Of a DNA stretch of 56,579 nucleotides, positions 19,778 to 56,562 are shown one piece after another. Source of the stretch: Virgibacillus sp. AGTR (GTDB taxonomy: Bacteria; Bacillota; Bacilli; Bacillales; Amphibacillaceae); assembly GCF_016919725.2 (NCBI RefSeq), contig NZ_JAJERH010000023.1:1-56579 (forward strand), in the 5' to 3' direction. Position 1 is the stretch's first letter, and every line of letters begins with the position of its first letter. The position numbers were made by a program, and so were the translations under genes. The notes beneath the pieces were generated by a model. That model was not told the origin of the DNA. It searched no databases and was given only the letters and a program-made list of their open reading frames with translations.

Positions 19778-19910
19778 AGACTATTTTACGAATCAATAAT
19801 TTAATCGCATTTTTGTTAGAGGATTACTGGAAAGAGTTCTAAATAAAATACTTCTATTATTTAGTTGGTATAATTGATAGTAGAAATATGATTAGTAGGA
19901 GAGAATTCAA

Positions 19911-20303: not shown

Positions 20304-20331
20304 AAGATTGGTTATCAGAGGGGAGAGTTGT

Positions 20332-23229
20332 ATGAAAGATTTTCTTCGTGATTTAGAGAGTTCCTTATATAAAGGTTTTATTAACAGAGAATATGGAAAG
20401 TCAGATATTTATAAACCTAGATTATTATTTAATAATGTAAGAAAGAACGAAGATGTTTTAACAACCTTAGTGCAAGAGCTTAATAATTGCCATTCTTTCA
20501 TATTTTCAGTGGCATTTATAACAGAAAGTGGGCTTGCTACATTAAAATCACATTTACTTGATCTAAAAAGGAAAGGGATAGAAGGTAAAATATTGACTTC
20601 TACCTTCCTTAATTTTAATCAACCAAAAGTCTTTAAAGAGCTGATGAAAATAACTAACGTTGAAGTTCGATTAACTGATTTAAAGGGGTTCCATTCCAAA
20701 GGATATATTTTTGAGCACAATATACATTATTCACTGATTGTAGGGAGTTCTAATTTAACTGCAAATGCTTTGAAAGAAAACTATGAATGGAATGTGCAGT
20801 TAAATTCATATAAAAATGGAGAATTAATAAAACATTTCAAAAAACAATATGAGGAAATTTGGCAAAATTCTATTTCTTTAACAAATGAATGGATTAAATC
20901 TTATGAAGAAGTTTATAAACCGATTGACTACCGATCTGCAACAAAAGTAATGGAATTATCTCAGGAATATAATACCAGCTCTTTAAAGACTACAATAACA
21001 ATTAGTCCGAATAAAATGCAAAAAGTAGCATTAGAGCAAATAGAATCTGTACGAGAAAATGGGAATAATAGAGGATTAGTTATTTCTGCAACAGGAACAG
21101 GGAAAACCTATTTATCAGCTTTTGATGTTCAACGTGTGGCACCTAAGAAAATGCTATTTGTTGTACATCGTGAACAAATTCTATATAAAGCTAAATCTGA
21201 TTTCCAGGCTGTTTTAGGTGGATTAGATAGAGACTTTGGAATCTTATCTGGTTCAAGTAAACAAACTAGTGCTAAATATTTATTTACTACAATACAGACT
21301 ATTTCAAAACAGAGCACCTTGGAGCAATTTGATCCAAAAGCATTTGATTATATTTTAATTGATGAAGTACATAAGGCAGGAGCATCCTCCTATTTAAGAG
21401 TAATAAATTATTTTAAACCAAAATTCATGTTGGGAATGACTGCAACTCCAGAGAGAACAGATGATTTTAATATATATGAGCTCTTTGATTACAATATTGC
21501 TTATGAGATTCGGTTACAAGAAGCTTTAGAAGAAGATATGCTTTGTCCATTTCATTATTTTGGTGTAACTGATTTAGAATATAATGGTCAATTAATTGAT
21601 GATACTACAATCGTCTCTAGATTAGTAATGGATAAACGAGTAGAGCATATTATAGAAAAAATTCATTACTATGGGTATTCTGGAGAACGTGTAAAAGGAC
21701 TTATGTTTTGCAGTAGAAAAGAAGAAGCCATTAATTTATCTCATGCTTTTAATCAAAGAGGATATCGAACAGTTGCGTTAACAGGTGATCATTCGCAAGA
21801 AAAAAGAATGCAAGAAGTGGTCCGATTAGAAAAAGGTTCCTTAGATTATATTATTACGGTAGATATTTTTAATGAGGGAATTGATATTCCAAGTGTAAAT
21901 CAGGTAGTTATGCTCCGTCAAACGCAATCAAGTATCATTTTTATCCAACAGTTAGGGCGTGGTTTGAGAAAACATCAGTCAAAGGATTTCGTCACAATCA
22001 TTGATTTTATTGGTAATTATAAGAATAATTATATGATACCTATAGCTCTTTCAGGGGATAAATCTCAGAATAAAGATAATATTAGAAGGTGGGCAACAGG
22101 GACGAGCTATATTAAAGGGGTATCGACTATTAATTTTGAAGAGATAGCTAGGAAGCAAATTTTTAAATCAATAAATGCAAGTAATTTAACTACTTTAAAG
22201 ATACTTAGAAATGCTTTTATAGAATTAAAGAACCGCCTAGGTTGTACACCTTATTTACAAGACTATATAGAAAATCATTCCATTGATCCTACTGTAATAA
22301 CTGGTAAGTTTAATAACTATTATATGTTCCTTATAAAAATGAAAGAGGATATTCCCGTTATCGACACGTATGAACAAAGTGTATTAACTATGCTTTCAAA
22401 GGAAGTCCTTGATGGTAAGCGTAAACACGAACTTCTACTGATAGATCAATTGCTAGAAAAAGGATTATTGAAGCATAGACAGTATATCCAGGTGTTACAA
22501 AATCAGCATTGTATTGTTGATGAGAAAACAATGAAATCTGTTCATCGAGTTATTGATTTGTCCTTTTTTACACGAACAGATCAAAAGAAGTATGGAAATA
22601 AACCAATAATTGAAGTGACCTATGATGGAACTTATAAATTTAACTCAATTATAATAGAAAGCTTACAAACCAACTCGTTTTTTAAAAAGTTAGTAAGAGA
22701 TGTAGTAAATAGTGGCCTTAAACGAAGTAAGAAATACAAATTGGATAGTTCCCTTACACGATATGAGAAGTATACGAGAAAAGATGCATGTAAATTATTA
22801 AACTGGGACAATGATGAAAGTTCTACGTTGTACGGTTATAAGCCAAAGCATCAAACTTGTCCAATATTTGTCACTTATCATAAAAATGACGGAGTAGAAG
22901 CTAGTATAAATTATAGGGATGAGTTCATAAATCCTGAAGTATTTAAATGGTATACAAGAAGCAAGCGCACCTTGAATTCGGAAGAGGTAAAAAAGATAGT
23001 CCATGCTAAAGAAATGAATATGGAACTTCATTTGTTTATAAAAAGAGATGACGATGAAGGAAGTGGCTTTTACTATTTAGGTCAAACACTTCCAGATGAA
23101 AACACAATTATACAAGATAAGATGTTAAATGATATTGAGAAGGAAATTCCGGTTGTTCATATGAACCTGGTTTTAGAAAAGCCTATAGATCATAAATTAT
23201 ACCAATATATTATATCTGATAATGTATAG
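20332..23229 (+). CDS. PLD nuclease-SF2 helicase-DUF3427 fusion protein
   Basis: This large protein (965 residues) starts with a phospholipase D-like nuclease module: FHSKGYIFEH and VGSSNLTANAL at about residues 110-145 carry the HxK and GSxN parts of an HKD motif. An SF2 helicase follows: ATGTGKTYLS (motif I), LIDEVHK (II), GMTATPERTD (III) and QQLGRGLRKH (VI). The last 350 residues fit DUF3427. One HKD motif implies dimeric nuclease action. The start at 20332 has GGGGAG six bases upstream; the in-frame TTG at 20308 has no site. It is the last gene of the cassette, with no clear terminator before the IS4-type element. Likely a DNA-targeting effector. Confidence 0.88.
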   Translation: MKDFLRDLESSLYKGFINREYGKSDIYKPRLLFNNVRKNEDVLTTLVQELNNCHSFIFSVAFITESGLATLKSHLLDLKRKGIEGKILTSTFLNFNQPKVFKELMKITNVEVRLTDLKGFHSKGYIFEHNIHYSLIVGSSNLTANALKENYEWNVQLNSYKNGELIKHFKKQYEEIWQNSISLTNEWIKSYEEVYKPIDYRSATKVMELSQEYNTSSLKTTITISPNKMQKVALEQIESVRENGNNRGLVISATGTGKTYLSAFDVQRVAPKKMLFVVHREQILYKAKSDFQAVLGGLDRDFGILSGSSKQTSAKYLFTTIQTISKQSTLEQFDPKAFDYILIDEVHKAGASSYLRVINYFKPKFMLGMTATPERTDDFNIYELFDYNIAYEIRLQEALEEDMLCPFHYFGVTDLEYNGQLIDDTTIVSRLVMDKRVEHIIEKIHYYGYSGERVKGLMFCSRKEEAINLSHAFNQRGYRTVALTGDHSQEKRMQEVVRLEKGSLDYIITVDIFNEGIDIPSVNQVVMLRQTQSSIIFIQQLGRGLRKHQSKDFVTIIDFIGNYKNNYMIPIALSGDKSQNKDNIRRWATGTSYIKGVSTINFEEIARKQIFKSINASNLTTLKILRNAFIELKNRLGCTPYLQDYIENHSIDPTVITGKFNNYYMFLIKMKEDIPVIDTYEQSVLTMLSKEVLDGKRKHELLLIDQLLEKGLLKHRQYIQVLQNQHCIVDEKTMKSVHRVIDLSFFTRTDQKKYGNKPIIEVTYDGTYKFNSIIIESLQTNSFFKKLVRDVVNSGLKRSKKYKLDSSLTRYEKYTRKDACKLLNWDNDESSTLYGYKPKHQTCPIFVTYHKNDGVEASINYRDEFINPEVFKWYTRSKRTLNSEEVKKIVHAKEMNMELHLFIKRDDDEGSGFYYLGQTLPDENTIIQDKMLNDIEKEIPVVHMNLVLEKPIDHKLYQYIISDNV

Positions 23230-23339
23230 CTCAAAGTAATACGGTTTATTAGTTTTTTAGTTCTTAACCAAATATGTAAGGGGTTTAGTGTTTTTGATGG
23301 TTAACTAGTAATTAGAATAGTAAAGGTAAATTCTTTAAT

Positions 23340-23359
23340 TAATAACTCAACTTTCGCAG
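23340..23359 (+). repeat. Left terminal inverted repeat of the IS4-type element
   Basis: Twenty bases ending in CAACTTTCGCAG, a perfect reverse complement of 24850-24869. Confidence 0.85.
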
Positions 23360-23511
23360 CTAGAAAAATGCGTATAATATAACTAGCTGTAAAGCGTGTT
23401 ACGGTTCAAGTATGTACATTGACAAATGAAATAGGCATAAAAAAACACCTCAACATTTGGTATAGTGTAATTGTCTAGAAAAACACTATCAACAGAAGAG
23501 GTGTCTCCTTT

Positions 23512-24862
23512 ATGATAGCGAATAATGACCAAAATAATCAACTACCAAATGAACTTTTTTCAACCTTTAAAGAATTAGAACTGTTTAAACATCTTAGAAA
23601 AGCTGGTATTACGAAGCCTCTGGGCTTTACTTGTGTCTATCTTTTCCAATTAATTTTTTGTTTGATCTTCGAAAATAAGAACTGGTATCAAGTACTTCAA
23701 AGCAAGAAAGCGAAAGATTGTCGAGAAAAAAATACCGTCTATCGTTTTTTAAACAAGTCTACTTTTGCCTGGATAAGATGCTTACTATATCTAAGCACAG
23801 ATACGATTGAAAAAGTAACACACCTAACGAATCACGATCGACCAAAATTATTGATTGTAGACGATTTCTTCATATGACCGTAATCGCAGTAAATCAGTTG
23901 AATTATTAGCTCGCTGTTTTGACCATGCCTCCCCAAAAATGCGCTTTTATAAAGGGTTTCGTATGCTTATTTTTGGGTGCCACTTTCATGCCAGTAGACT
24001 TTTCTTTATTAAGCTCGAAGAAGAGCCAAATTAATGGAATTTCATCAAAGGTTGATAAGCGTAGTTCCGGTTATAAACGAAGAGTAGAAGCATTACAAAC
24101 CGCACCTGAGCAAATACCACGTATGGTGGAACGCGCGATGAATGCCGGTATTGATGCTTCCCATGTGTTGATGGACTCTTGGTTCACGTACCAGCCTCTC
24201 GTTAAGGAAATAAAGGACCAAGGACTTGATGTCATTGGCATGGTGAAGAACTTGAAACAGCGTTACCTTGTGAATGGTCAACGAGTGAGCTTAAAGGAAC
24301 TTTATCATTTAGCGAAACCGACAGATGGAAAGAAAAGCATTCTTCGCTCGATTCATACAACTTAAGCGAATGGCGTTCCTATTAAAGTTGTGTTTGTTCG
24401 CAATCGTAATAAAAAGAGTGAATGGTTAGCTATTTTAAGCACATATTGTACACTCAGTGATCAAGAGATCATTCGTATTTATGGGATGCGATGGGACATT
24501 GAAGTTTTTTCAAAACATCAAAATCTCTTTTGAAACTCCAAAAAGAATTCCAAGGTCGTTCGTATGAAGGCTTAATTAGTCATACAACCATCGTATTCGC
24601 ACGATATATTATTCTCTCGTGGCAAAACCGATGTAGCACAGACGCGCGAATACTTGGCGGCATGTTTTATGCATTATGTGATGAAGTTAATGATCTCGTT
24701 TGGGCTGTGGCAATACAACAATTAACCGAGCTTCATGAAGCTGCTTTGAAAAAGAGCAACAAGAAAGTACAAAAACCAATAAAGAGTCAACTACAACACT
24801 GGATTGCAGGCCTACCCAATTATATCAGGGCTTATCTGCCTATTTCAGTCTGCGAAAGTTGA
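23512..24862 (+). pseudogene. IS4-family transposase, broken
   Basis: The conceptual product is an IS4-type DDE transposase: LLIVDD (first Asp), RNRSKSVELLARCFDH, FSLLSSKKSQINGIS, HVLMDSWFTYQPL (second Asp), VIGMVKNLKQRY and YGMRWDIEVFF (Glu). The frame shifts near 23870 and again near 23970, and a TAA falls at 24363-24365. A further shift near 24525 is needed to reach the C-terminal part that ends at 24862. No functional enzyme can be made, so the element could move only with help in trans. Confidence 0.85.
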
Positions 24863-24869
24863 GTTATTA
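24850..24869 (-). repeat. Right terminal inverted repeat of the IS4-type element
   Basis: CTGCGAAAGTTGAGTTATTA, a perfect reverse complement of the left end at 23340-23359. Confidence 0.85.
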
Positions 24870-25080
24870 TGATAAAGAAAATCAATGAAAATGTAGAATA
24901 AATGATATAAGGTCGACAAAATAGATTACCCTTATTACATCAAAACATTATCATTTGTTTGAAAGACATTTAGTTGAAATCTAATTTTGTCTATGAAAAA
25001 TTCTGCATTTTTATTTTGCAATACACAAAAGTAGCTTATAGACCAAATTTTCTGTAAATGGATGATGATGGGGGGAGAAT

Positions 25081-28000
25081 ATGAATAGAAGGAAAGATAT
25101 TTTAAATGCTTGGATTACGATAGAGCAACTATCCGAAGGTTCTATTAATAAAAAGGACAAATTGCTAAAGCCTTTACATACAAAGGAGGAAGACTGGAAA
25201 AAGTTTTTTTCAGACTTTTTAACTAAACAAAAGGAAAAACAAAATTTATCCGATAAGTTCTTTAAGAAGTCGGGCTTAGTATTATATTTTGATATTTTTA
25301 ATTTTCAAGAAGTTGTTGATATATTGAGGAAGAAATACAAGATTGCTAAAACCGACGAAGAAGTTAGTAACTCTGACAAATTCACCTTGTCTATATATTT
25401 TGATAACCAATTAAATTTTATAGCAGACAAATTGTTCTTTACGATGAGTGGTTATATCCGACAATATGGTAAGTTACCTGAAGAGTTTTTTAAAGTTGAA
25501 AACTCATTTAGAGAAGATTTGAACAGGAAATTTGATGAGGATTTTAATATTACAATTGCTGAACTTTTACAAAAGTATCATGTTTCCACAGAAAACTTTC
25601 GCTATGCATTTGTGAAAAATTTGGATAATGGAGATGTAAACCTACATTCGTTCTTTATTGAAGATCTGAACAAAGCAAAGACAATAACTAATAAAAACTT
25701 GAATCGATATTTTAATGGCTTTTCTGGGGAAAGGCAAAATCTAGATGGTAAAAAAGAATCAACTCATTTTAGCTCACATATTTTCGAGACAATTTTACAA
25801 CCTAAATTTTATCCGTTGGGACGTTTTCCAAGTAATCCTGATTTTGCGCTTTCATTCATGCAACAGGTTGCGGTAAATCTAGCTTTAAATGATAAAAATG
25901 ATATTCGTAGTGTCAATGGGCCGCCAGGAACAGGGAAAACAACGCTGTTGAAAGATATTTTTGCTGATTTAGTAGTACAGCAGGCAGCGGAAATTGCACA
26001 GCTTTCTAATAAAAGTATTCCAGGTGGTCTAGTTTATTGGCAAAGTGCTAAACTTGGCGTTTTACCACGTTCCATTTCAGATAAGAATATTATTGTTGCA
26101 AGTTCAAACAATGGGGCAGTCCAGAACATTGTTAAGGAGTTACCAAAGAAAGAAGAAATTGCTGACGATTTTCAAAAACAACTAGCGGAAGCGAATTATT
26201 TCAAAGATGTTTCTAATTCTAAATTAACTGGTGAAGGTTTCGGGAAAAATCGTGAGATTAAAAATGAGCTTTTAAATGAGGAAAATTGGGGTACGTTCTC
26301 GTTAGAAGGTGGAGCGTCAACAAACATTAACAGGTTACTTTTAAACATCGAAGCAATTGAAAAAGATTTAGAAGAAAATTATCAAGCGAATACAGGTGTG
26401 TTTCAAGAATTCTTACGTCTCTATGATGAATTAAAAATTGAAAGAGAAAAAATTCAAGAATATAGCGAGAAAATGTATTTTCTTAAAAAATTAAAAACCC
26501 AGCATAAGGAGCAATCCATTACTTTTGAACAAGAAGAAAAGAAGAAACGAACAAATTTGATTTCACAGGAAAAAGAAGCGAATCGTGAACTTGAAAGACT
26601 GAGACAAGTAAGTGTATATCTGCAAAAAGATTTATTGAATGTCTCCAGTGAAATTAAAAATTTAACTAATGTACAAGCTCAAACTGAAAGGAATTATGAT
26701 GTAGTTACTTCACAAAAGCCAAGTTTTTTATGGTTCCAGAAAATATTTAATAAATCAAAAGTTGAGCAGTATTTCAAAAAACTTAATAATACGAATGATC
26801 ATTTAAATCATCTTTCTCAACAAAAAACTAAATTGTTGAATGACCGCATGCAACTCGAAAATAGGTTAAAGGAAAATGTTACAAAAAGTAAGTATGCTCA
26901 AAAACAAATTCAGGATACAAAAGCTGACTTCGATCGATGGATGAATACTCAACAAAATGATTTAAAAAAATTGGAACAAGAAATTGCGTTATTGGAAAAA
27001 CTCAAATTTCAAAGAGGCATAAAGGAACTGGATTTTTCACTATCATATGATGAACTTCAGAAGTCTAACCCATGGTTTACGAAGCAGTTCCGTATTTTAC
27101 AATCAGAGTTATTTATTTCAGCCTTAAAAGTTAAAAAGCAATTCCTGTATGAAAACAGAAAGAATTTGAAAGCGGCAAGGATTATTTGGAATAAGCAGTC
27201 TGAATACATTGGAAAAGAGAATGGACATCAGTTAATTTCAGAATCATGGCAATGGTTGAATTTCACCATCCCTGTTGTCAGCACTACTTTTGCTAGTTTT
27301 GGTAGAATGTTTAAAAATCTTAATGAAAATTCAATTGGTAATCTATTCATAGATGAGGCTGGTCAAGCACTACCACAAGCTGGTGTTGGCGCAATTTTTA
27401 GAAGTAAAAAGGTAATGGTTGTTGGGGATCCATCACAAATAAAACCAGTAGTGACGTTAGATTCAAATGTTCTGACCTTGATTGGAAGATATTACAAAGT
27501 TGATGAAAAATTTGTCTCTACTGATGCGTCTACTCAAACAATTGTGGATGCCACAAGTCAGTATGGTTTCCAAAAAAATGATGTTGAATGGATTGGTATA
27601 CCACTTTGGGTACACAGACGCTCGAACTATCCAATGTTTACGATTTCAAATGAAACATCGTATGATGGGTTGATGGTACAAGGTAAATCAGAAGATGAGT
27701 CACAAGGAAAATCACAATGGTATGATTCAGCCGGAAAAGCAAATGACAAATTTGTTAAAGAGCAAGCTGACTTACTGAAAAGTCTGATTGATAAACGTTT
27801 GCAGGAAGATCCAAATTTAGCGGACGAAATCTATGTTATATCCCCATTTAGAAACGTGGCTTATAAACTGGCACGAGTTTTAGATGAAATTAACTTCACG
27901 AAACGAGAAAATGAGAAAATAACAAATATTGGAACTGTCCATACTTTTCAAGGGAAAGAAGCAAGAATTGTCTATTTTGTTCTTGGAGCGGACTCTAATA

Positions 28001-28167
28001 GCAGTGGGGCAGCAAGATGGGCTGTTTCTGATCCGAATATGATGAATGTTGCAGCTACACGAGCTAAAGAAGAGTTTTATGTTATTGGTGATAAGAAATT
28101 GTATGCATCACTTGGTAGTGAAGTAGCAAATAAAACGATTTCGATTATTGACGACTATAATAGGTAA
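25081..28167 (+). CDS. Large SF1 (UPF1/Dna2-like) helicase with coiled-coil insertion
   Basis: The 1,028-residue protein has motif I NGPPGTGKTTLL (about residue 280), a long Lys/Glu-rich coiled coil inserted between motifs I and II (about 430-660), motif II NLFIDEAGQA (about 757), motif III VVGDPSQIKPV, IGTVHTFQGKEARIV (motif V) and MNVAATRAKEEFYVIGD (motif VI). This is the layout of UPF1/Dna2-type SF1 helicases; the coiled-coil insert is reminiscent of several antiphage helicases. The N-terminal 250 residues contain no nuclease motif that I recognise. GGGGGGAG lies five bases before the ATG. It is separated from the upstream cassette only by a dead IS, so it may once have belonged with it. 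Confidence 0.85.
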   Translation: MNRRKDILNAWITIEQLSEGSINKKDKLLKPLHTKEEDWKKFFSDFLTKQKEKQNLSDKFFKKSGLVLYFDIFNFQEVVDILRKKYKIAKTDEEVSNSDKFTLSIYFDNQLNFIADKLFFTMSGYIRQYGKLPEEFFKVENSFREDLNRKFDEDFNITIAELLQKYHVSTENFRYAFVKNLDNGDVNLHSFFIEDLNKAKTITNKNLNRYFNGFSGERQNLDGKKESTHFSSHIFETILQPKFYPLGRFPSNPDFALSFMQQVAVNLALNDKNDIRSVNGPPGTGKTTLLKDIFADLVVQQAAEIAQLSNKSIPGGLVYWQSAKLGVLPRSISDKNIIVASSNNGAVQNIVKELPKKEEIADDFQKQLAEANYFKDVSNSKLTGEGFGKNREIKNELLNEENWGTFSLEGGASTNINRLLLNIEAIEKDLEENYQANTGVFQEFLRLYDELKIEREKIQEYSEKMYFLKKLKTQHKEQSITFEQEEKKKRTNLISQEKEANRELERLRQVSVYLQKDLLNVSSEIKNLTNVQAQTERNYDVVTSQKPSFLWFQKIFNKSKVEQYFKKLNNTNDHLNHLSQQKTKLLNDRMQLENRLKENVTKSKYAQKQIQDTKADFDRWMNTQQNDLKKLEQEIALLEKLKFQRGIKELDFSLSYDELQKSNPWFTKQFRILQSELFISALKVKKQFLYENRKNLKAARIIWNKQSEYIGKENGHQLISESWQWLNFTIPVVSTTFASFGRMFKNLNENSIGNLFIDEAGQALPQAGVGAIFRSKKVMVVGDPSQIKPVVTLDSNVLTLIGRYYKVDEKFVSTDASTQTIVDATSQYGFQKNDVEWIGIPLWVHRRSNYPMFTISNETSYDGLMVQGKSEDESQGKSQWYDSAGKANDKFVKEQADLLKSLIDKRLQEDPNLADEIYVISPFRNVAYKLARVLDEINFTKRENEKITNIGTVHTFQGKEARIVYFVLGADSNSSGAARWAVSDPNMMNVAATRAKEEFYVIGDKKLYASLGSEVANKTISIIDDYNR

Positions 28168-47424: not shown

Positions 47425-48120
47425 TTGGCTCATGAGATAGAATGTATAAACGTGAGCAAGGTATTTCAAGGGGATGGTATCAGTACATTTGCTTTAGATA
47501 ATATTAACTTACAGTTTAAAGAAGGAGAATTTGTATCAATTGTTGGTCCTTCAGGCTCTGGTAAGTCAACTTTACTTAGTCTGTTAGGTGCGTTAGACCT
47601 TCCGACTAAAGGAAAAATAAATTATGGAAACAATCCAATAAATAAATTAAGTCAGAAAAAACTTGCTGATTTTCGATTTAAAAATATTGGATTTATATTT
47701 CAACAATTCCATCTATTACCTTATCTTACATCTATAGAAAATGTTATGGCTCCATTATTTTCACGCAAAATAAGCTACGATAAAAAAGAGCGTGCAGAAG
47801 GATTGCTATCTCAAATAGGTTTGGAAGATAAATTTAATTCATTACCCTCCCAGCTCTCCGGTGGACAGCAACAGCGTGTGGCAATTGCTCGTGCTTTAGT
47901 TAATGAACCAAATTGGATTCTAGCAGATGAACCTACTGGAAATCTAGATACTTATACTGGTGAAATTATTTTTGATCGTTTAATTACTCTGAATCAAGAA
48001 AAAGGGTGCGGTGTAATTTTTGTAACACACGACCCGAATTTAGCATCACGAGCAGAGCGCATTATTAGAATGAAAAATGGGAAGCTAATCAGTGATACTA
48101 GGAGTGAGTCTTATGTTTAG
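47425..48120 (+). CDS. ABC transporter ATP-binding protein (MacB/LolD type)
   Basis: A 231-residue ATPase with Walker [10 protein letters not shown] (about residue 40), Q-loop [12 protein letters not shown], signature [15 protein letters not shown] (about 143), Walker [12 protein letters not shown] and H-loop FVTHD. It pairs with the FtsX-type permease that overlaps its end. MacB-type pairs act on peptides and lipoproteins at the membrane and often give resistance to antimicrobial peptides. The start is TTG, with GGGGGA upstream. Confidence 0.92.
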
Positions 48121-51100
48121 GTTCATTTGGAATTCCTGGTGGCGTAACAAGGAACGCTTCTTATTATTGATTATTGGCGCTCTTATCGTAAGTATTGGTC
48201 TTAGTTATTTAGTGGGTATTACCCAAGCATCAAACGCAACAATAGTGGATGAACTACAACAGAGATGGAAATCATCATACCACATTGTTGTACGTCCGCC
48301 CGATTCTCGTAGTGTGACTGAAGAACAAAACTTATTAGAGCCAAATTATCTCAGTGGACTTTCTGGTGGTATAACGCTCAACCAATACAAAGAAATTAAG
48401 AAAATGACAGATATTGATGTAGCAGCTCCTATTGCTATGATGGGATATATGCAAAATTCTACTCAACTTAATCAAGTTAACTATTCAGAACCAGGTATTT
48501 ATCGTATGACAATAAAAGAAACAACTAATACAGGTGTTAAACAGGAAGTAGATGAAAGTAACATTTATTTTACGGTAAATTGGGATGTCCCAAAAGATAC
48601 AAGTGAATATGGTGTTACTAGATTTTTAGGGGATTTATCGTATGGAACGAATGTATTAATTGCAGGTATTGATCCGAAAGCAGAAGCGGAACTAGTAGGT
48701 ATTAATCATGCAATTGTGAATGATAGTGAGTATCTTAATGAGAAAGATTCTGTTAAAGCTGAAGAAGTCATTGATGGAATTAAGACAAATAAAATACCGG
48801 TCATTATAAGTAACCAAGAATATGTAGACGGTAAAATTAATTATACAATTGAAAAACTCGAACTACAGTTTGGAGATGACCCTACTTCTGTAATGGAAAA
48901 AATTAAGGAAAAAGGTGGGAAATCTTATTTAGAAAAAGTTGCTGGGACTGAAGTTGATCAATTTAACTATACCACTAAGGAAGCCCATCAAAAAGTTGTC
49001 AAGCAAATTAGTGACAATATTAATTCTAAAGATTCTAGCTGGATGCCGTATAAACCCTCTTCAGTAAATTACCGAGAAGTAACTAGCCCATACGTTGAAA
49101 GGTGGCCATTTGCTTATGAAGTAGAGCCGTATATTGTACCAGAAGATTCATTACTTGCTGTTAATTATGCCTATCGTCCAATATCTATGTTTGGTGACGA
49201 AAGTTCTTCTTGGCCGAGAATTCAATTAGACTTTAAAGGGGTATTTGATCCAAGTAAATTAAATGTATCCAAAGATCCTTTAACAGAACTACCGATGGAA
49301 ACTTACTTTCCTTCCAAAGCGCAATGGGTGTTAGATGATAATGGGAAACCAATTAATCCTCCAAAAAAAATGAAACCATTAAATAATCCATACGGTTTTT
49401 TAACAAAGCCACCTTTAATGCTTACTACACTGCAATCTGCTGCCGAAATATTAGGAGATGAACCCATATCTGCAATTCGTCTGAAAATAAAGGGTGTAAA
49501 AGAATTAAATAAAGAAAGTGAACAAAAGCTACAGGCAGTTGCGAAAAGAATAGAAGATAAAACAGGTTTGTTAACTGATATTACCTTAGGATCGTCTCCA
49601 CAACCAGCACTCACCCATATTCCAAAAGTAGGAAATGAAAAGAGTATCGGTTGGGTGGAACAGCCTTGGATTAAACTAGGATCATCTGTAACCATTTTTC
49701 AGGAATCTAAAGTAGGGATGTCGGGTGTTATTGCAAGTGTTATTATTGTGGCAATTGTATATGTGTTTTCATCAAATATTATTATGATGTATGCAAGAAA
49801 AAAAGAGTTTGCAGTCTTGCTTTCCATTGGGTGGAGACCGAATCAATTAAGCAAATTACTCTTTATTGAGGCAACACTAATTGGTTTATTTGTGTCGATA
49901 ATTAGTTGGCTTATTCTTGGGCTGATATATGTAATGCATGATATACAAACATCAGCTATTCGCTTATTTCTTATTGGCATAATGGGTATTACTATATATG
50001 TAGCGGGGGCTATTATTCCTGGGTTATTAGTGAGAAAGGTTCCTCCATTTGAAACGATGAAAGCGGGAGAAGTATCCACTCATAAAAGACATTTATTTAA
50101 AACTAAAACAATTCTTAGTATGAGTTTCAAGAACCTGCTTACAAAGTGGAAACGAAGTATTTTATCAGTAATATCTATCGCATTGCCAACAAGTCTGTTA
50201 ATCTTCTTCTTGTTTGTCACTTTTCATTTACGTGGAACTATGTTTACGACATGGCTAGGTGAGTATGTAGCATTAGAAGTTGGGATGATGCATTATGTAG
50301 CGATGGGCGTTGCAATTGCAATCGCTATTTTAACTACCACGGAAATTATTTGGCAAAATGTAGCGGAAAGGCAACCTGAACTTGCGGTTCTTAAAGCAGT
50401 TGGATGGCAGAACAGAACAATTCGATTGTTAGTGCTAATTGAAGGTGCAATAAGCGGATTAATTGCTGGGTTGCTTGGAATAATTTTTGCCTTCGGAATG
50501 GTATGGGGAATATATCATCAGTTTCCAATTGAAAGAATACCATTCTTTCTCCTTACTATTTTTATTCCAATTACTACCGGCATAGTAGGGGCAACATTAC
50601 CAGCAAAAAAAGCAGTAAAAATACAGCCTTATGAAGGGTTGACTGGTGGTGTTGTCAATTCAAAGAAAACTGAAAAAAATTTCCGGTATGTGTTTAGCAC
50701 AATGGGTATTTGTCTATTTATAGGTATTATTGCTTTGTTGGCGCAAGCGATCCCTGATGTACAAGAATCAACTAATAATAAGCAATCAAAAGCTTCAGAT
50801 GTGAAGGGAACTTCGGGAGAAGTTAAAGAAGTTTTTTCATCTGACCATAGCCAATCGGAAATAGATACAACTATAGAAAAATCTAAAAAAGAGTCTTTGC
50901 AAAGTATAGTTAAAAGTGCAACAAAGGTTTTTCATTTAGGTAAAACCTATCAAGATGGAGATAGAAGGTTTACTTTTACATTATTGGAGGAGGCTCCAAC
51001 AGATATTGAAAAGAAAAGTGAGGATACAAAATTCATAACTATATCCTCTGAATTAGTTAGAGATAAAATACCTTTAGCAACGGTTATTGATTATCAACCG

Positions 51101-51343
51101 CATATAACGTACCGCTTGGTTGATGACAAAGGTTTCGAATATGAGCCAGTAGATTATCAAGTTTTAGAGTCAGAAAATTGGAAGGGAAGAATACGATTAG
51201 GATCACCTGGAAAAGTTAAGTTGTCACTGACTTATGAGGTACCTAAAGATACTAACAATTTGATATTGAAAGGTTTTCACAGATTTTGGGCAAAATCAGG
51301 TATTCTTGTGGTAAAGATGACTGGTAAAGTAGAGCAGGATTAA
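48113..51343 (+). CDS. FtsX-family ABC permease with extra C-terminal domain
   Basis: A 1,076-residue permease. Helix 1 is near residues 12-35, followed by a very large extracytoplasmic domain (about 36-535). Next come helices in SGVIASVIIVAIVYVFSSN and the typical FtsX motif EFAVLLSIGWRPNQL, then a second FtsX half with PELAVLKAVGWQNRTIRLL. After a final helix (about 885-905), a soluble extracellular domain of about 170 residues follows, resembling DUF4352-like folds. The ATG at 48113 has GGAG eight bases upstream and overlaps the ATPase gene by eight bases. It may extrude or sense peptides. Proximity to the cysteine-rich peptide cluster makes self-protection a reasonable guess. Confidence 0.85.
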   Translation: MFRFIWNSWWRNKERFLLLIIGALIVSIGLSYLVGITQASNATIVDELQQRWKSSYHIVVRPPDSRSVTEEQNLLEPNYLSGLSGGITLNQYKEIKKMTDIDVAAPIAMMGYMQNSTQLNQVNYSEPGIYRMTIKETTNTGVKQEVDESNIYFTVNWDVPKDTSEYGVTRFLGDLSYGTNVLIAGIDPKAEAELVGINHAIVNDSEYLNEKDSVKAEEVIDGIKTNKIPVIISNQEYVDGKINYTIEKLELQFGDDPTSVMEKIKEKGGKSYLEKVAGTEVDQFNYTTKEAHQKVVKQISDNINSKDSSWMPYKPSSVNYREVTSPYVERWPFAYEVEPYIVPEDSLLAVNYAYRPISMFGDESSSWPRIQLDFKGVFDPSKLNVSKDPLTELPMETYFPSKAQWVLDDNGKPINPPKKMKPLNNPYGFLTKPPLMLTTLQSAAEILGDEPISAIRLKIKGVKELNKESEQKLQAVAKRIEDKTGLLTDITLGSSPQPALTHIPKVGNEKSIGWVEQPWIKLGSSVTIFQESKVGMSGVIASVIIVAIVYVFSSNIIMMYARKKEFAVLLSIGWRPNQLSKLLFIEATLIGLFVSIISWLILGLIYVMHDIQTSAIRLFLIGIMGITIYVAGAIIPGLLVRKVPPFETMKAGEVSTHKRHLFKTKTILSMSFKNLLTKWKRSILSVISIALPTSLLIFFLFVTFHLRGTMFTTWLGEYVALEVGMMHYVAMGVAIAIAILTTTEIIWQNVAERQPELAVLKAVGWQNRTIRLLVLIEGAISGLIAGLLGIIFAFGMVWGIYHQFPIERIPFFLLTIFIPITTGIVGATLPAKKAVKIQPYEGLTGGVVNSKKTEKNFRYVFSTMGICLFIGIIALLAQAIPDVQESTNNKQSKASDVKGTSGEVKEVFSSDHSQSEIDTTIEKSKKESLQSIVKSATKVFHLGKTYQDGDRRFTFTLLEEAPTDIEKKSEDTKFITISSELVRDKIPLATVIDYQPHITYRLVDDKGFEYEPVDYQVLESENWKGRIRLGSPGKVKLSLTYEVPKDTNNLILKGFHRFWAKSGILVVKMTGKVEQD

Positions 51344-51381
51344 AAATATAGCATAAAATGAATCTCCAATGATATTATAAT

Positions 51382-51406
51382 AGGCTGGTTCTTGTCCAGC
51401 CTTTTT
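51382..51406 (+). terminator. Terminator of the ABC-FtsX operon
   Basis: AGGCTGG (51382-51388) pairs with CCAGCCT (51396-51402), loop of seven, followed by TTTTT. It faces the convergent peptidase gene. Confidence 0.75.
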
Positions 51407-51436
51407 AGGTTTATAGAACAAAGATTAAGACTAATA

Positions 51437-52582
51437 TTATGTATATTTTAAGTAGAAAGTCTTTAATTGATTATGTAGATCGTCATAGTTATCCAAGTTT
51501 TGTACTAAAGCCATGTTCGTCCGTGCATTCAATTTTTTTAATTTGCATTGTGTTCTACTATTAATATAATTAAATTCCTTTAAATTTTTAAATATATTAT
51601 CAAGTTTTTGCAACCCATATTTACTGAAAAGGAAATAAACTAATAGAAAACCTTGGTTATATATTTCATGACCAGATCTATAGTCAAGTTTGTTTAATTC
51701 TGATAAGGATAAGAGAGTATAGCCAACATCCTTTAGAACTTTTTTTACATAATTTTCCGAATTACTCGCAGAAAAATTAATAGAATTACCTTTAAATATA
51801 AAAGATTTTTCTAATAGAACAGCTAGTCCTTCTTGTAGCCACAGTGAAGCATTATCATTAGTGATATTTGAAAGCATTTTATGTGATAGTTCATGAGTTA
51901 GCATTTGTAAAAAAATTTTTGTCTTTTCTTTCGTATAATGGGGTACCAAAATTTTAATAGATTCTTTTTCTTCACTCCAACCGTACGTTGTAAAACAGGG
52001 TATGGAAGTTGAGATTTGATCTAAAGTGCTAAATATTTTAATTTTAACCTGATTTGGATTCCATTTAAATAATTTATTGTAATTATCTATAATTCTATTG
52101 CCATAATTTATTGCTAATAAAGCCTGGTCATGAACGTCTTTAAAGTATTTTACGTCTATATTCTGGCTTTTAACATTTAAAAAAGGGTAATCATCTAGTA
52201 TCCATTTACTATGAGAACTATCTTTTACTATACGGTATACTACACTATAATCTTTAACCCTTCCAGACGGTCTAGTAATTTTTAAATTAAAATATAGCAG
52301 TCCCTGCTTCTTATTACATAGTTTAATTTTATGGACCGAAGTTTCAAAAATAAAGAACTGCTTTTTTTGAGCTACTACTTCCTCCATCCATCTATGTTGC
52401 TCCTCGTAAAAAATAGAGTTTAAAGAATTCTGGAAACTCATAAATGTATCGATATCATTATTGTTTATGCTTTTTATTAAACCAGAAAAGTGTTTTTTAA
52501 TCTTGTATTTAACTTGTTTTCTCTTTGTAAATAAATTCAGAAGCCATCTTGCAATAATATAAATCCATATTCTTTTTACCAT
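51437..52582 (-). CDS. Membrane-anchored gluzincin metallopeptidase (peptidase MA-like)
   Basis: A 381-residue protein with one N-terminal membrane segment (about residues 4-20), a domain of about 120 residues of unknown fold, and a metallopeptidase domain. Its zinc motif THELSHKML (HExxH, about residue 230) is followed by WLQEGLAVLLEKS, whose Glu is the third ligand in the gluzincin/peptidase MA pattern. AAAGGAA lies nine bases before the ATG. It sits 21 bases beyond the terminator that follows the cysteine-rich peptide gene, so it should receive read-through transcripts. It could mature the peptide, degrade it for immunity, or act on the envelope. The gene is very AT-rich. Confidence 0.82.
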   Translation of the reverse strand: MVKRIWIYIIARWLLNLFTKRKQVKYKIKKHFSGLIKSINNNDIDTFMSFQNSLNSIFYEEQHRWMEEVVAQKKQFFIFETSVHKIKLCNKKQGLLYFNLKITRPSGRVKDYSVVYRIVKDSSHSKWILDDYPFLNVKSQNIDVKYFKDVHDQALLAINYGNRIIDNYNKLFKWNPNQVKIKIFSTLDQISTSIPCFTTYGWSEEKESIKILVPHYTKEKTKIFLQMLTHELSHKMLSNITNDNASLWLQEGLAVLLEKSFIFKGNSINFSASNSENYVKKVLKDVGYTLLSLSELNKLDYRSGHEIYNQGFLLVYFLFSKYGLQKLDNIFKNLKEFNYINSRTQCKLKKLNARTNMALVQNLDNYDDLHNQLKTFYLKYT

Positions 52583-52602
52583 TATTTAGCATTCCTTTCT
52601 CT

Positions 52603-52644
52603 AAAAATAAGACTGCCGACTTTTTTATCGGCAGTCTTATTTTT
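52603..52644 (-). terminator. Strong terminator/attenuator after the cysteine-rich peptide gene
   Basis: AAAAATAAGACTGCCGA (52603-52619) and TCGGCAGTCTTATTTTT (52628-52644) form a perfect 17-bp stem with an eight-base loop and a T run. Its location between a small structural gene and the peptidase gene is typical of an arrangement that makes much of the first product and less of the second. Confidence 0.9.
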
Positions 52645-52671
52645 GCTTGCTCGTCAGACGGATTTAAAAAG

Positions 52672-52839
52672 TTAACAGGGACATTCTGCAACAAATTCTG
52701 AGCATACTGTGCCATCACGCCCATCATATACTTCTCTGCACAATGCATCTCTCTTGAAAATTCTAAAGCAATCATAGTCATAACAGCAATAATCTTTACT
52801 CTTACGAAACGCAGCATCTCCACATGGTACATATTGCAT
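52672..52839 (-). CDS. Cysteine-rich 55-residue peptide, candidate disulfide-rich bacteriocin
   Basis: This short gene has an almost ideal ribosome binding site (AGGAGGTGA, seven bases before ATG), a promoter about 100 bases upstream and a perfect 17-bp terminator 28 bases downstream. The product has eight cysteines at 6, 18, 19, 24, 34, 46, 53 and 55, many aromatic and charged residues, and no hydrophobic signal segment. It begins MQYVPCGDAAF and ends VCSEFVAECPC. Neighbours encode thiol-redox proteins, an exporter and a metallopeptidase. The size and cysteine load recall defensin-like bacteriocins such as laterosporulin, as an analogy only. I know no named family. A 107-codon frame overlaps it, but with no such signals. 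Confidence 0.8.
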   Translation of the reverse strand: MQYVPCGDAAFRKSKDYCCYDYDCFRIFKRDALCREVYDGRDGTVCSEFVAECPC

Positions 52840-52946
52840 AATCTTCACCTCCTATTGAGGAATTATATTAATAGTTTTATTAAAACTACTAAAAACTAAG
52901 AAACATATTATATATAATTATTGAATGTTCAAACTATTAAAAGAGA

Positions 52947-52975
52947 ATCTTAAGGGGAAAATTGTTAATTGTCAA
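52947..52975 (-). promoter_or_regulatory. Consensus sigma-A promoter of the cysteine-rich peptide gene
   Basis: On the minus strand TTGACA (52975-52970), a 17-bp spacer and TAAGAT (52952-52947) are close to ideal, giving a leader of about 100 bases before the peptide ATG. Confidence 0.8.
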
Positions 52976-53006
52976 GATTTGATTCAGGTATCCCTTACTA
53001 TAATAG

Positions 53007-53564
53007 TTATAAAAAGTGAATTGCTTTATATGGAACTGGAGTAGCATTTTCTGCAATATAATTGTGATTTATTTTTACAAAAGCTGGCATAAACTTGAGT
53101 TTTAAAGTTTTGTATAGTGACTGATTTACTAGGTAGACCCTAAAAGAATTATTGTATAACATTACTAATTCTTTCGCTTTATCAACATCTTGTTCCTTAA
53201 AAATAACAAAGTAATTATCTTTTTGGTTACTGTTGAAGAATTCTTCAAAGTTAATACTACATTGAAGACAACTTTTATCCAAAAAAACTAAAATACTATC
53301 ATTGTGAACCAAATTGTGTAGTTCAATATAAGAATTATCCCAAGGGTCCTTAAGTATTAGATTAGGAATTTTAATGCCTTGGGCAAACCCACTAGAATTA
53401 ATATTTAATTCTCGCTGCTCAAATCTTTTTTCTACAGAATCAATCCATTTCTTATATTTAGACCACCAAGTAAGTAATCTATACAGTAGGTAGATAACCA
53501 TAACAAGGCATATTAAAATTAAAAAACTGTTTATAAAATTAAAATACAATTTATCACACCACAC
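53007..53564 (-). CDS. Membrane-anchored thioredoxin-fold protein (CLQC)
   Basis: A 185-residue protein with an N-terminal membrane helix (about residues 10-33) and a redoxin domain facing outward. FLDKSCLQCSINF (about residues 95-107) carries the CxxC redox centre, and FMPAFVKI holds the cis-proline found opposite it in thioredoxin folds. This is the plan of MauD/TlpA-type thiol-disulfide proteins. The GTG start has no clear ribosome binding site, so the exact N-terminus is uncertain. The promoter TTGACT-16-TAAAAT at 53620-53593 overlaps that of the divergent exporter gene. It precedes the cysteine-rich peptide gene and probably helps form or correct its disulfides. Confidence 0.78.
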   Translation of the reverse strand: MWCDKLYFNFINSFLILICLVMVIYLLYRLLTWWSKYKKWIDSVEKRFEQRELNINSSGFAQGIKIPNLILKDPWDNSYIELHNLVHNDSILVFLDKSCLQCSINFEEFFNSNQKDNYFVIFKEQDVDKAKELVMLYNNSFRVYLVNQSLYKTLKLKFMPAFVKINHNYIAENATPVPYKAIHFL

Positions 53565-53573
53565 AGTAATTTA

Positions 53574-53620
53574 TTTACAATTCTTACATTTCATTTTATA
53601 CTATTATTTAAAAGAGTCAA
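53574..53620. promoter_or_regulatory. Overlapping divergent promoters
   Basis: Plus strand: TTTACA (53574-53579), 17 bp, TATACT (53597-53602), driving the exporter operon. Minus strand: TTGACT (53620-53615), 16 bp, TAAAAT (53598-53593), driving the CLQC protein. The two -10 boxes overlap by two bases, so polymerase binding on one side should exclude the other. Confidence 0.55.
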
Positions 53621-53652
53621 CCTATTCTGAAAAAATATTGGAGTGTAATATT

Positions 53653-55452
53653 TTGCGAACTAAACAAATTATTTCATCTTTATCCTTCAGTTATAAAAGT
53701 GTATGGGGTGTTAGTAGAATAGGTCTAACGGTAATTCTAACTACCAAAATTATTCTAGGATTTCTACCTTTACTTAGTGTATGGCTTTTTGAAAATTTAT
53801 TTGATAGTATTTTGGCTGCTGTAAAGGAAAATGCATTTTCTATAGAAATTATGTTATATCTAGCGGGTCTAGCGGGGACGGTATTTTTTGCTTTTGCATT
53901 TAACAAGTTTACAGATATAGTAAGGAGTATTTTAATCTATAAATTTGAAGTGAAAATGAAAGGAAAACTTTTTAATTCAGCTAAAGATATATCGTATATT
54001 AACTATGAAGATCCACGATTTCAGAATAGTTTTTTACGTGCTTTTACTGGACAAAAAAATATTATCAGTGTGGTTGATAGTAGTACAACTATTATTCAAA
54101 CTACGATTTCCCTCATATCTGTCTTAATATATTTAATAAATATTAGCAAATATTTTTTAATTCTTTTATTTGTAATGGTTATTCCATTAATCTTTATTGA
54201 AACTAAATATGGCAAACAAAGATTTAATTTATCTAAAGGGTTAGTTGAGAGAGGACGTAAGGAAAATTACTTTGAAAGTTTATTAATAAGACGTGAATCC
54301 TTAAAAGAAATTAGAATAAATAATCTTGAGAACTTTTTTATCTTAAAATGGCAAACAAGTTATATAAAAAACGCAAAAGAAAAAATAAAACTTGATATCA
54401 AACAAACAAAGTGGTTATTTCTTGCAAATTTACTTCTTTTCATTTCATTTATTGGTTCAGGTACCTATGTATACTATTTAATGGTAAATGGATTATTAAC
54501 AATTGGTGCATTAGCAGCTGTTTTACAAGCTATACAAAGATTACAAGGAATAGTCCCCAGTTTTACAGGGAGTTTATCAAATTTCTATGAGTATACTTTG
54601 CATGTAAGAGAATTTATAAATTTCCTGCCGCCAATTAATAAATGCATTGAGGAAAAAGAGACGATTAATTCATTGGAGTCAATCGAAGCTACCAACTTAA
54701 CGTTCTATTATCCAGATAAATTAGAGCCTAGCCTTGACAATTTAAATCTTAGTATTAAGAAAGGGAAGAAAACTGCTATTATAGGAGGTAATGGGGCGGG
54801 AAAAACCACTCTAGTTAAGTGTTTGACAGGTCTATATGATACAAATGATATGATAAAAATAAATACTGAATATGATATATCAAAAATTATAAAAAAAAGC
54901 TATTGGGATAAAATTAGTGTGCTTTTTCAAGATTTTAATAAATACGACCTTACAGTGAAAGAAAACATCGGTATGACTAATCTTGATAAGTTAGAGAATA
55001 AGGAAGCAATCGCTAAATATATGAAATATACAGGTTTACATACTTACGTAGAAAAATTACCTTTGAAATATAACAGTGTACTTGGAAGGCTATTCAATGG
55101 TGGCCAAGAATTATCTGGCGGGCAGTGGCAAAAATTAGCAATAGCAAGGGCTTTATTCAAAGAAGGGGATATTCTTTTTTTGGATGAACCAACTTCTGCA
55201 CTCGACCCTGAAAGTGAGCTATTTGTAATTGAAAATCTTTTTGAAGTAATCGGAGATTTAGGAGTTGTTTATATTACCCATCGTATCAATGTGGCCATGC
55301 TCGCAGATGAGATAATTTTGATGGAAAACGGTAGAATAATTGAACAAGGATCACATGAAAGATTAGTTAAACAGAGGGGAAGATACTTTGAGCTTTACAA
55401 TAAGCAAATTGAACAACTAAAAAAGAGGAGGGGTGGTGTTTCGGTTGGGTGA
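53653..55452 (+). CDS. Exporter-type ABC transporter (membrane domain fused to ATPase)
   Basis: A 599-residue half-transporter with six membrane helices (about residues 15-300) and a C-terminal ATPase: Walker A IIGGNGAGKTTL (about 375), Q-loop VLFQDFNKYDLTVKEN, signature ELSGGQWQKLAIARAL (about 490), Walker B ILFLDEPTSALDP and H-loop YITHR. It lacks an N-terminal C39 peptidase, so it cannot remove a double-glycine leader, which fits the leaderless-looking peptide nearby. The TTG at 53653 lies nine bases after GGAG; the TTG at 53638 precedes that site. It overlaps the MauE-like gene by about 17 bases. Confidence 0.88.
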   Translation: MRTKQIISSLSFSYKSVWGVSRIGLTVILTTKIILGFLPLLSVWLFENLFDSILAAVKENAFSIEIMLYLAGLAGTVFFAFAFNKFTDIVRSILIYKFEVKMKGKLFNSAKDISYINYEDPRFQNSFLRAFTGQKNIISVVDSSTTIIQTTISLISVLIYLINISKYFLILLFVMVIPLIFIETKYGKQRFNLSKGLVERGRKENYFESLLIRRESLKEIRINNLENFFILKWQTSYIKNAKEKIKLDIKQTKWLFLANLLLFISFIGSGTYVYYLMVNGLLTIGALAAVLQAIQRLQGIVPSFTGSLSNFYEYTLHVREFINFLPPINKCIEEKETINSLESIEATNLTFYYPDKLEPSLDNLNLSIKKGKKTAIIGGNGAGKTTLVKCLTGLYDTNDMIKINTEYDISKIIKKSYWDKISVLFQDFNKYDLTVKENIGMTNLDKLENKEAIAKYMKYTGLHTYVEKLPLKYNSVLGRLFNGGQELSGGQWQKLAIARALFKEGDILFLDEPTSALDPESELFVIENLFEVIGDLGVVYITHRINVAMLADEIILMENGRIIEQGSHERLVKQRGRYFELYNKQIEQLKKRRGGVSVG

Positions 55453-55999
55453 TTTTTTTATTTCTATAGGTAGTTATTTAATTTCGATTATTTTTATTGC
55501 TTCTTTTATTGATAAGATAACAAATTGGAAAATTTTCAAAGTAAAGGTAGAAGAATATAGAATAATACCAAATCGTTTAATTAAACCTTTAAGTACAATT
55601 TTTATGGCTACTGATGCTTACATAGGTTTTATGTTTTTATTAAAAGAAATAGGTCTATTGAATATACTGTTATTAGTTTTCATATTGATAGTATATACTA
55701 CAGCTATATTAATTAATTTGTTTCGAGGTAATATTTATATTTCTTGTGGATGTGGTGGCGTTCTTGAAAGCGACAAACTATCTACCTTACTTGTATATCG
55801 TAATATAGTATTGATAATTTTAGGTATTTCTTTGTTGAAAATGAATGATTTTCTAAACATTAACTCGGACAGCTACATTGTTCTTCCTTTTTTAGTTTCT
55901 ATAGCAATCCTATTATTATATGGTGTCGCTAAAGTATTTATCGAACATAATATAATGATTAGAAAGTTACGTGCTAGGTTAGTATATTTTGAAGAATAA
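55436..55999 (+). CDS. MauE/DoxX-type redox-associated membrane protein
   Basis: A 187-residue protein with four or five membrane helices and a cysteine pair in ISCGCGG (about residue 103), as in MauE-type proteins, which with MauD are required for forming the many disulfides of methylamine dehydrogenase small subunit. Here it should exchange electrons between the membrane and the thioredoxin-fold proteins. The start is uncertain: GTG at 55436 is four bases after AGGAGG and TTG at 55445 is thirteen. It overlaps the exporter gene and is followed after 14 bases by the CPIC redoxin gene. Confidence 0.82.
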   Translation: MFRLGDFFISIGSYLISIIFIASFIDKITNWKIFKVKVEEYRIIPNRLIKPLSTIFMATDAYIGFMFLLKEIGLLNILLLVFILIVYTTAILINLFRGNIYISCGCGGVLESDKLSTLLVYRNIVLIILGISLLKMNDFLNINSDSYIVLPFLVSIAILLLYGVAKVFIEHNIMIRKLRARLVYFEE

Positions 56000-56013
56000 C
56001 AGGGGGAGTTTAT

Positions 56014-56562
56014 ATGATCATGGATGTTATGATAACGGTGATTCTCGTCTTACTTATAGCAGTTCTAGGTATTCTTTATTACATGTTAAAATATAACAGT
56101 AATTTTCTAAAACAGATTCAAAGTATAAAGGGGATTCAATTTAATACATTGGATATAGGTGAAGAATCTCCTCTCTTTAGAGTGATGGATGATAATGGGA
56201 AAAAAGTTATTGCAAAACAGTTATTCTATAATAAGAATACTTTAATATTATTTGTGAATTCTAAGTGTCCAATTTGCAAATCAATTTTAGGTAAAGTGGA
56301 CTTAATAAATGATAATTACGATCTTAACATAATTGTGATAAATAATGATGAGTCTTTAGATGATTCGCTAATTAAAAAGTTATTACCACTTTCCATCACT
56401 TACATTAGATCAGTTTATATAACGACAGCGTATCATGTCTATACTACTCCAATGGGAGTTCTTATAGAAAACGGGAAAGTTAAACAGTACAGTAAAATAT
56501 CGGATTTTTATGTACTTAATAATATGTTGGTTTCTGAGAAAGGAAAACAAATAGCAAATTAA
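56014..56562 (+). CDS. Membrane-anchored thioredoxin-fold protein (CPIC), TlpA/MauD-like
   Basis: A 182-residue protein with an N-terminal helix (about residues 5-25), an AhpC/TlpA-type start (GEESPLFRVMDDNGKKV), the redox centre VNSKCPICKSIL (about residues 87-98) and a cis-proline segment YTTPMGVLIENGKV. It has the layout of MauD-type disulfide proteins and is the second such protein in this locus, the other lying across the divergent promoter. GGGGGAG lies seven bases before the ATG. It follows the MauE-like gene directly; the cluster may continue past the window end. Confidence 0.85.
   Translation: MIMDVMITVILVLLIAVLGILYYMLKYNSNFLKQIQSIKGIQFNTLDIGEESPLFRVMDDNGKKVIAKQLFYNKNTLILFVNSKCPICKSILGKVDLINDNYDLNIIVINNDESLDDSLIKKLLPLSITYIRSVYITTAYHVYTTPMGVLIENGKVKQYSKISDFYVLNNMLVSEKGKQIAN

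Follow-up and report, generated by a model that had tools for sequence, protein, structure and literature searches.

The right end of a 56,579-base contig of Virgibacillus sp. AGTR (NZ_JAJERH010000023.1, analysed over its complete length and called the window here) encodes a 55-residue peptide with eight cysteines among genes for two membrane redoxins, a MauE protein and an ATP-binding cassette (ABC) exporter. This unit is, judged by its sequence relatives, a recurrent disulfide-rich-peptide cassette, which in the window also includes an ATPase/FtsX pair and a metallopeptidase. Gene content and cysteine pattern are conserved, and the arrangement recurs with dissimilar peptides. We propose, with middling confidence, that the cassette is self-contained and would make, oxidise and export one small disulfide-rich peptide, the thiols of which would be oxidised inside the cell before export.

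A conserved peptide in a conserved neighbourhood

Homologues of the peptide (40–55% identical) were found in three Exiguobacterium records and in one genome of the window's order (G107), and the same gene neighbourhood surrounds them in these four other genomes or plasmids. In a tblastn search of 72,556 plasmid records, two Exiguobacterium plasmids were recovered, whose best places are 51–55% identical and carry no annotated gene. A profile of four peptides, run against 397 genomes of the order, gave one further secure case, G107 (E 1.1e-22). The other matches, in five of the 397 genomes besides the window's own and G107, were treated as noise (E at least 0.0016, partial, some with internal stops), and non-window matches in 14 of 61 genomes (E at least 0.0099) were discarded likewise. 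A scan of genome contigs with five peptides identified Exiguobacterium sp. s193, which has the full gene set; the ends of its contig repeat the peptide, and the copy number there is uncertain. Since an earlier scan of this kind had confirmed no member, genome-contig scans appear to overlook members of the family. The peptide was not found in phage records or viral contigs.

A search of related clusters for a frame with the same cysteine spacing had been suggested in the preliminary description of this DNA, and such a frame exists. In eight aligned peptides, that of the window included, Cys 6, 18, 24, 46, 53 and 55 are invariant (8/8), and all eight start with M-x-Y/F-x-P-C, in which the first cysteine is residue 6 of the window peptide. 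The eight cysteines emphasised earlier are therefore conserved as six; C19 and C34 are present together in the window peptide alone, and for this reason a C19–C34 bridge, which is probable there, is read as an addition. The window peptide has no evident N-terminal leader and matches nothing in Pfam or NCBIfam. AT-rich DNA readily yields small frames, and the 55 codons could in principle be a chance frame in an ordinary redox and transport island, but the conservation of both peptide and neighbourhood refutes this explanation, the probability of which is negligible.

The features of the locus are listed below (window position, strand, description).

47425–48120, plus: ATPase of a MacB/LolD-type ABC transporter (best NCBIfam match LolD, 249.2 bits, below its cut-off of 307.75)
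48092–51343, plus: FtsX-type permease of 1083 residues, partner of the ATPase (PF02687, 79 bits, cut-off 25.5)
51382–51402, plus: terminator-like hairpin separating the convergent FtsX and peptidase genes
51437–52582, minus: zinc metallopeptidase-like protein, HELSH...E (PF13485, 22.6 bits, below its cut-off of 32.4)
52603–52644, minus: intrinsic terminator of the peptide gene, 18-pair stem (fold z −5.6; equalled by 0 of 200 shuffles)
52672–52839, minus: peptide structural gene, 55 residues, eight cysteines, without evident leader
52845–52853, minus: ribosome binding site AGGAGGTGA, with five bases between its end and the ATG
52947–52975, minus: promoter-like TTGACA-17-TAAGAT, 10 of 12 positions
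53007–53564, minus: first membrane redoxin, CLQC, N-terminal span followed by a basic flank
53638–55452, plus: ABC exporter, a half-transporter with spans and ATPase (PF00005, 103.9 bits)
55433–55999, plus: MauE, CGCGG motif, five predicted spans (PF07291, 75.2 bits, cut-off 27)
56014–56562, plus: second membrane redoxin, CPIC, MauD-like (TIGR02661, 45.3 bits, below its cut-off of 188.6)

Most of what had been described around the peptide gene is thus in place: the 55-codon frame, the strong ribosome binding site, the perfect terminator, the CLQC and CPIC redoxins, the CGCGG protein, the HELSH protein and the exporter, among whose Pfam matches no leader peptidase domain occurs. The cluster is also AT-rich as stated, with a guanine-plus-cytosine (GC) content of 28% against 36.5% in window positions 1–47424. 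The supposed consensus promoter fares worse, because sites of its quality are at chance level in this AT-rich window (35 found, against a mean of 33.3 in shuffles). The second redoxin fails the equivalog cut-off for MauD and is MauD-like only, while the first has no significant Pfam match by itself and its family profile matches ResA in the PDB (E 0.004). A search for amine dehydrogenase (PF02975) in the window's own genome gave no match, and the same search matched none of 14 control genomes. In a search with defence models, only generic ATPase and permease matches were obtained. The last gene stops 17 bases short of the contig end, and the cluster therefore possibly continues beyond it.

The unit as first outlined contained the correct genes and left out the ATPase/FtsX pair at 47425–51343, by which it has to be enlarged leftward. 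This pair is part of the neighbourhood in four of the five clusters that share the peptide, and gene relatedness across these clusters assigns it to the unit: the ATPase is 61–65% identical to the peptide-adjacent ATPase in L021, L022 and L031, and the permease, for which comparison with L022 gives a probable true start around 48113, is 46–49% identical over about 1070 residues in the same three. The remaining cluster genes are 25–65% identical to those of the window across the five clusters. In the other four, the ABC exporter is 39–54% and the second redoxin 40–59% identical, and relatives of the first redoxin occur in L021, L022, L029 and L030. In both Exiguobacterium plasmids the first redoxin and the ATPase/FtsX pair flank the peptide frame, and the exporter, MauE and the second redoxin are found on the opposite side; in G107 the order is redoxin, exporter, MauE, redoxin, peptide, which places the peptide at the other end, after the second redoxin.

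The metallopeptidase has relatives of 27–31% identity in L021, L022 and L031, with the HExxH motif and E251 invariant among three aligned sequences, and it weakly resembles M1 aminopeptidases in the PDB (best E 0.00038). As no signal peptide or span is seen by eye, it is probably cytoplasmic; that it trims or clears the peptide is a guess. As a separate observation, a second, more divergent and unannotated paralogue of the peptide lies beside the peptidase on an Exiguobacterium acetylicum plasmid (L021:4203–4376).

Recurrence of the cassette with dissimilar peptides

A MauE profile built from six sequences (threshold E 1e-8) hit 22 of the 397 genomes searched from the order, the window's own and G107 included, and 2 of 398 genomes drawn across the phylum, again including its own. 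Twenty-two loci were examined, namely 21 of the 22 other MauE places (G110, at a contig end, was left out) and one of two Priestia plasmids. In 18 of the 22, MauE has an exporter at a distance of at most 1.3 kb; these 18 share genera in several cases and amount to about ten genera. Seventeen of these 18 encode a small frame of 47–70 residues with six to eight cysteines, mostly of dissimilar sequence, which argues for a recurrent disulfide-rich-peptide cassette; in the eighteenth (L060) the candidate frame has four cysteines only. No such frame is present in the cluster of any of the four MauE loci without an exporter at that distance. The view that a dedicated cassette serves a cysteine-rich, presumably exported peptide is thereby borne out, both by these loci and by the homologues in the same neighbourhood.

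Small frames with at least six cysteines are concentrated inside the clusters of the 22 loci, where 19 occur in 23,990 free bases (two of them, in L061 and L062, being other-frame overlaps of the true peptide), compared to 2 in 88,226 bases outside, one of which, in L077, is the peptide of that very cluster, located just past the span set. The C-terminal pattern [FY]-D-...-G-x-x-C-...-C-x-C of the window peptide recurs in some of the cluster peptides. Among 2,324 small frames this motif, which was derived from the cluster peptides themselves, has 20 matches, every one at a cluster peptide, and it misses the peptides of L021, L032, L033, L060, L064, L072, L074, L077 and L078. In many cluster peptides a short hydrophobic-basic stretch at the start precedes the first cysteine; the window family has no such stretch. 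Ten of the other cluster peptides gave only Pfam or NCBIfam matches with E of at least 0.04, so that 11 tested members of this group of cysteine-rich peptides, all accompanied by redox and export genes of their own, have no significant match there. Such a group may be a source of stable scaffolds and antimicrobials. In addition, L059:7737–8122 holds two tandem peptide genes of identical protein sequence, with eight cysteines and a net charge of −8.

Side of the membrane on which the peptide is oxidised

Oxidation had been placed outside the cell in the preliminary description, which is doubtful in light of the positive-inside rule. Sidedness was judged from the counts of lysine and arginine (K+R) flanking the membrane spans. 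Each redoxin has a single N-terminal span, and basic residues follow it in 23 of 24 TlpA-type proteins (mean K+R 3.8 after the span and 0.33 before it), the lone exception being a ResA-like gene of L060 that lies about 5 kb from MauE, away from the cluster. Among first redoxins the same is seen in 15 of 19 proteins. Counted by genus, with that ResA-like gene omitted as one of 43 rows, basic residues come after the span in 14/14 for the TlpA-type and 9/11 for the first redoxins, where the two exceptions are g74, a tie that depends on the start codon, and g53 (L077), which has a weak span.

In MauE the mean K+R per segment is 0.3 (N end), 5.4, 0.5, 3.2, 0.7 and 3.9 (C end), and the CxC, conserved in 28/28 sequences, lies in the segment with 3.2. 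The alternation of charge favours an inside position of the CxC loop in all 28, with hairpin bounds set by hand and five frames read from apparently too early starts (N-end K+R 5–7). A low-confidence MauE model with five long helices (predicted local distance difference test, pLDDT, 54.5) served solely to define the break that separates spans 2 and 3. As controls served the 13 AhpC/TSA matches and BdbC of the window's own genome. Five ResA-like controls with a strong N-terminal span and a CxxC have 11, 13, 4, 3 and 2 K/R before the span and 3, 1, 1, 2 and 1 after it, and BdbC gives 7/1/2/1/3 with its cysteines in charge-poor loops, which agrees with its accepted topology. Because exported redoxins carry their basic residues before the span and those of the cassette carry them after it, the redoxin domains are read as cytoplasmic.

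Companions of MauE and MauD elsewhere bear on the same question. In two amine dehydrogenase clusters (L092, L093) MauD has the same N-terminal arrangement as the redoxins of the window, and the dehydrogenase light chain is rich in cysteines and has the N-terminus RRSFLAKAG, which is twin-arginine-like by eye; in L092 the score of MauD exceeds the NCBIfam cut-off, and that of the light chain is sufficient for Pfam PF02975 but not for NCBIfam. The stretch L073:7672–11058 encodes MauE and a MauD-like redoxin together with TatC (above cut-off) and a cysteine-rich protein that has no family match and whose start is twin-arginine-like. In L066:8744–14360, from the window's order, a lasso peptide cluster directly follows MauE and a redoxin, a counterpart of SviE/SviF; its B2 protein is above cut-off, and its cyclase and four-cysteine precursor are below. 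The twin-arginine translocation (Tat) route is described as one for folded proteins, and lasso peptides fold in the cytosol; these companions thus suggest folding inside before export.

Alternatively, the same cassette could export its peptide reduced and oxidise it on the outer face by way of the redoxins and MauE. Redoxins of the ResA/TlpA type usually face outward, as the five ResA-like controls fit, BdbAB are thought to oxidise sublancin outside, and the host genome has BdbC. However, the charge pattern of both redoxins and of MauE runs opposite to that of the own-genome controls, BdbC and the five ResA-like redoxins, and the companions of MauE and MauD bear twin-arginine-like or lasso signs, which leaves outside oxidation rather unlikely. 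Taken together, charge pattern and companions favour a peptide oxidised at the inner face and exported afterwards, and the cytoplasmic side is, by a slight preference, where we would place this oxidation.

The proposed route would begin with synthesis of the 55-residue peptide without a leader. The two anchored redoxins, at the cytoplasmic membrane face, would then accept electrons from the peptide thiols, yielding the three conserved disulfides and, in the window copy, C19–C34. The CGCGG thiols of MauE may re-oxidise the redoxins and pass the electrons to a membrane quinone, a step borrowed from DoxD-type proteins. The folded peptide would leave through the ABC exporter without a leader peptidase and act outside as a bacteriocin-like agent, with the ATPase/FtsX pair shielding the producer and the cytosolic metallopeptidase trimming or clearing the peptide. 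Of these steps, leaderless synthesis and ABC export are very probable, and disulfide formation by the redoxins and MauE of the cassette is likely.

Several observations weigh against this proposal. The cytosol normally reduces disulfides. The positive-inside rule describes a tendency rather than a proof, some of the values vary with the choice of start codon, and the signal is weaker in the first redoxins (15 of 19 proteins, 9 of 11 genera). Two AhpC/TSA controls of the own genome that have a span and no CxxC (L090, L091) show no clear bias, with 2 before and 3 after the span and 2 and 2, respectively. The exact CGCGG is found in 23 of 28 MauE sequences, with other CxC forms in the peptide clusters L070 and L077, and profiles detect two redoxins in 11 of the 18 exporter loci and one in the other 7. 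G107 (L029) has neither the FtsX pair nor such a peptidase within the 19 kb read, and the only other searched genome of its genus has no peptide. The window peptide is acidic (net −2), unlike many bacteriocins. Structure prediction, which had also been suggested at the outset, gave a strand-helix-strand-strand order that is weak, with a pLDDT of 69 for the best model and 38–46 for the other four. Furthermore, lasso products are described as persisting after deletion of sviF, mslE or mslF (PMC9266682), which argues against an essential role of such redox genes.

In a broader and more tentative form, to which we give somewhat less than even weight, MauE with MauD-like redoxins might constitute a general membrane machine that forms disulfides at the cytoplasmic face, delivers electrons to quinone and lets its clients fold ahead of their export. 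Among these clients could, equally tentatively, be Tat enzymes, lasso peptides and the present group of ABC-exported cysteine-rich peptides. On that view the cassette would represent a peptide pathway of bacteria in which oxidative folding is a dedicated step and faces inward. The side of the membrane on which MauE and MauD-like proteins act becomes a testable question, and should it be the inside, bacteria would possess a pathway dedicated to making disulfides in the cytoplasm, one that could be transferred to production strains.

Related systems and the role of the peptide

The cassette was at first regarded as a new system, which is too strong, since decRiPPter had predicted MauE-linked cysteine-rich precursors in Streptomyces. 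Its description lists three candidate families with mauE, one of them also with mauD, and precursors of at least eight cysteines each (PMC7794033). These families resemble the window in that MauE stands beside a small cysteine-rich precursor as its predicted target; they differ in being predictions from Streptomyces, and the description used for comparison names no unit of exporter and two redoxins, no membrane side and no leaderless peptide (PMC7794033). The window peptide has eight cysteines as well, and related peptides have six. Among titles and abstracts on MauE, disulfides and ABC transporters, decRiPPter alone bears on peptides, and those on DoxX, bacteriocins, disulfides and ABC transporters concern lasso peptides only. 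No publication on the present peptides or on inside-facing oxidative peptide folding was found in the literature searched, outside which most subscription journals lie.

Class I lasso clusters of the SviE/SviF type are likewise described with a DoxX-family membrane protein, a CXXC protein, a disulfide-containing peptide and transporter genes (PMC9266682, PMC7168211); they have lasso enzymes, none of which was noticed in the window cluster. The methylamine or aralkylamine dehydrogenase clusters (L092, L093) share the MauE family, the MauD-type redoxin N-terminus and a cysteine-rich companion. That companion is an enzyme subunit of larger size whose start is twin-arginine-like, and the redoxin of the window falls below the MauD cut-off. 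Sublancin and glycocin clusters also include dedicated thiol oxidoreductases (PMC9504619, PMC9266682). The glycocin cluster described in the first of these has an exporter with a peptidase domain and a glycosyltransferase (PMC9504619); no such domain is among the Pfam matches of the window exporter.

Laterosporulin, a class IId defensin-like peptide with six cysteines and a PDB entry, comes close in other respects. It is described as a 50-residue frame whose product begins right after the methionine, with a nearby ABC transporter that lacks an N-terminal protease domain (PMC3293901). The two differ in that MauE and redoxins do not figure in its description (PMC3293901) and in that the profile of the window peptide matches no PDB chain below E 0.1. 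Membership in the defensins (laterosporulin, actifensin) was considered and could not be shown: besides this result, the model is weak and has no Foldseek match at E 0.001. Leaderless bacteriocins, as outlined in the source, are similarly translated without a leader (PMC7616364), but they carry no post-translational modification, and dedicated oxidases are not described as part of the group (PMC8657885).

With its eight cysteines, including CC and CPC, the peptide might instead stay reduced and bind metal in the manner of a metallothionein, the redoxins keeping it reduced, as TlpA-class redoxins are often reductants. The six spaced invariant cysteines stand among further invariant residues, however, an exporter belongs to the unit, and the peptide has no match in either family database. 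Moreover, MauE is the speculated source of the disulfides in methylamine dehydrogenase (PMC7794033), and metal binding is accordingly a highly improbable alternative.

An antimicrobial role of the oxidised and exported peptide is reasonably probable. The same cassette chemistry could also produce a pheromone-like signal, with which the acidic character of the peptides in the window (net −2) and in L059 (net −8) is consistent. This is an improbable role: plasmid location in two Exiguobacterium and the high diversity of the peptides fit warfare, the ATPase/FtsX pair could confer immunity, and no receptor or two-component gene was noticed when the frames of 47425–56562 were read, a reading that included no dedicated search. 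The ATPase/FtsX pair probably serves immunity or a second export step, and immunity specifically is about an even prospect.

Outside the cassette, minus-strand frames at window positions 192–7891 form what we take to be a Wadjet/JetABCD-like set, with its large SMC-like part split in two frames. Large helicase/nuclease-like frames extend over 17831–28167 at about 30–35% GC and, by eye, may represent a defence or mobile island. Within this stretch, at 23512–24862, three successive frames appear by eye to be pieces of one transposase.

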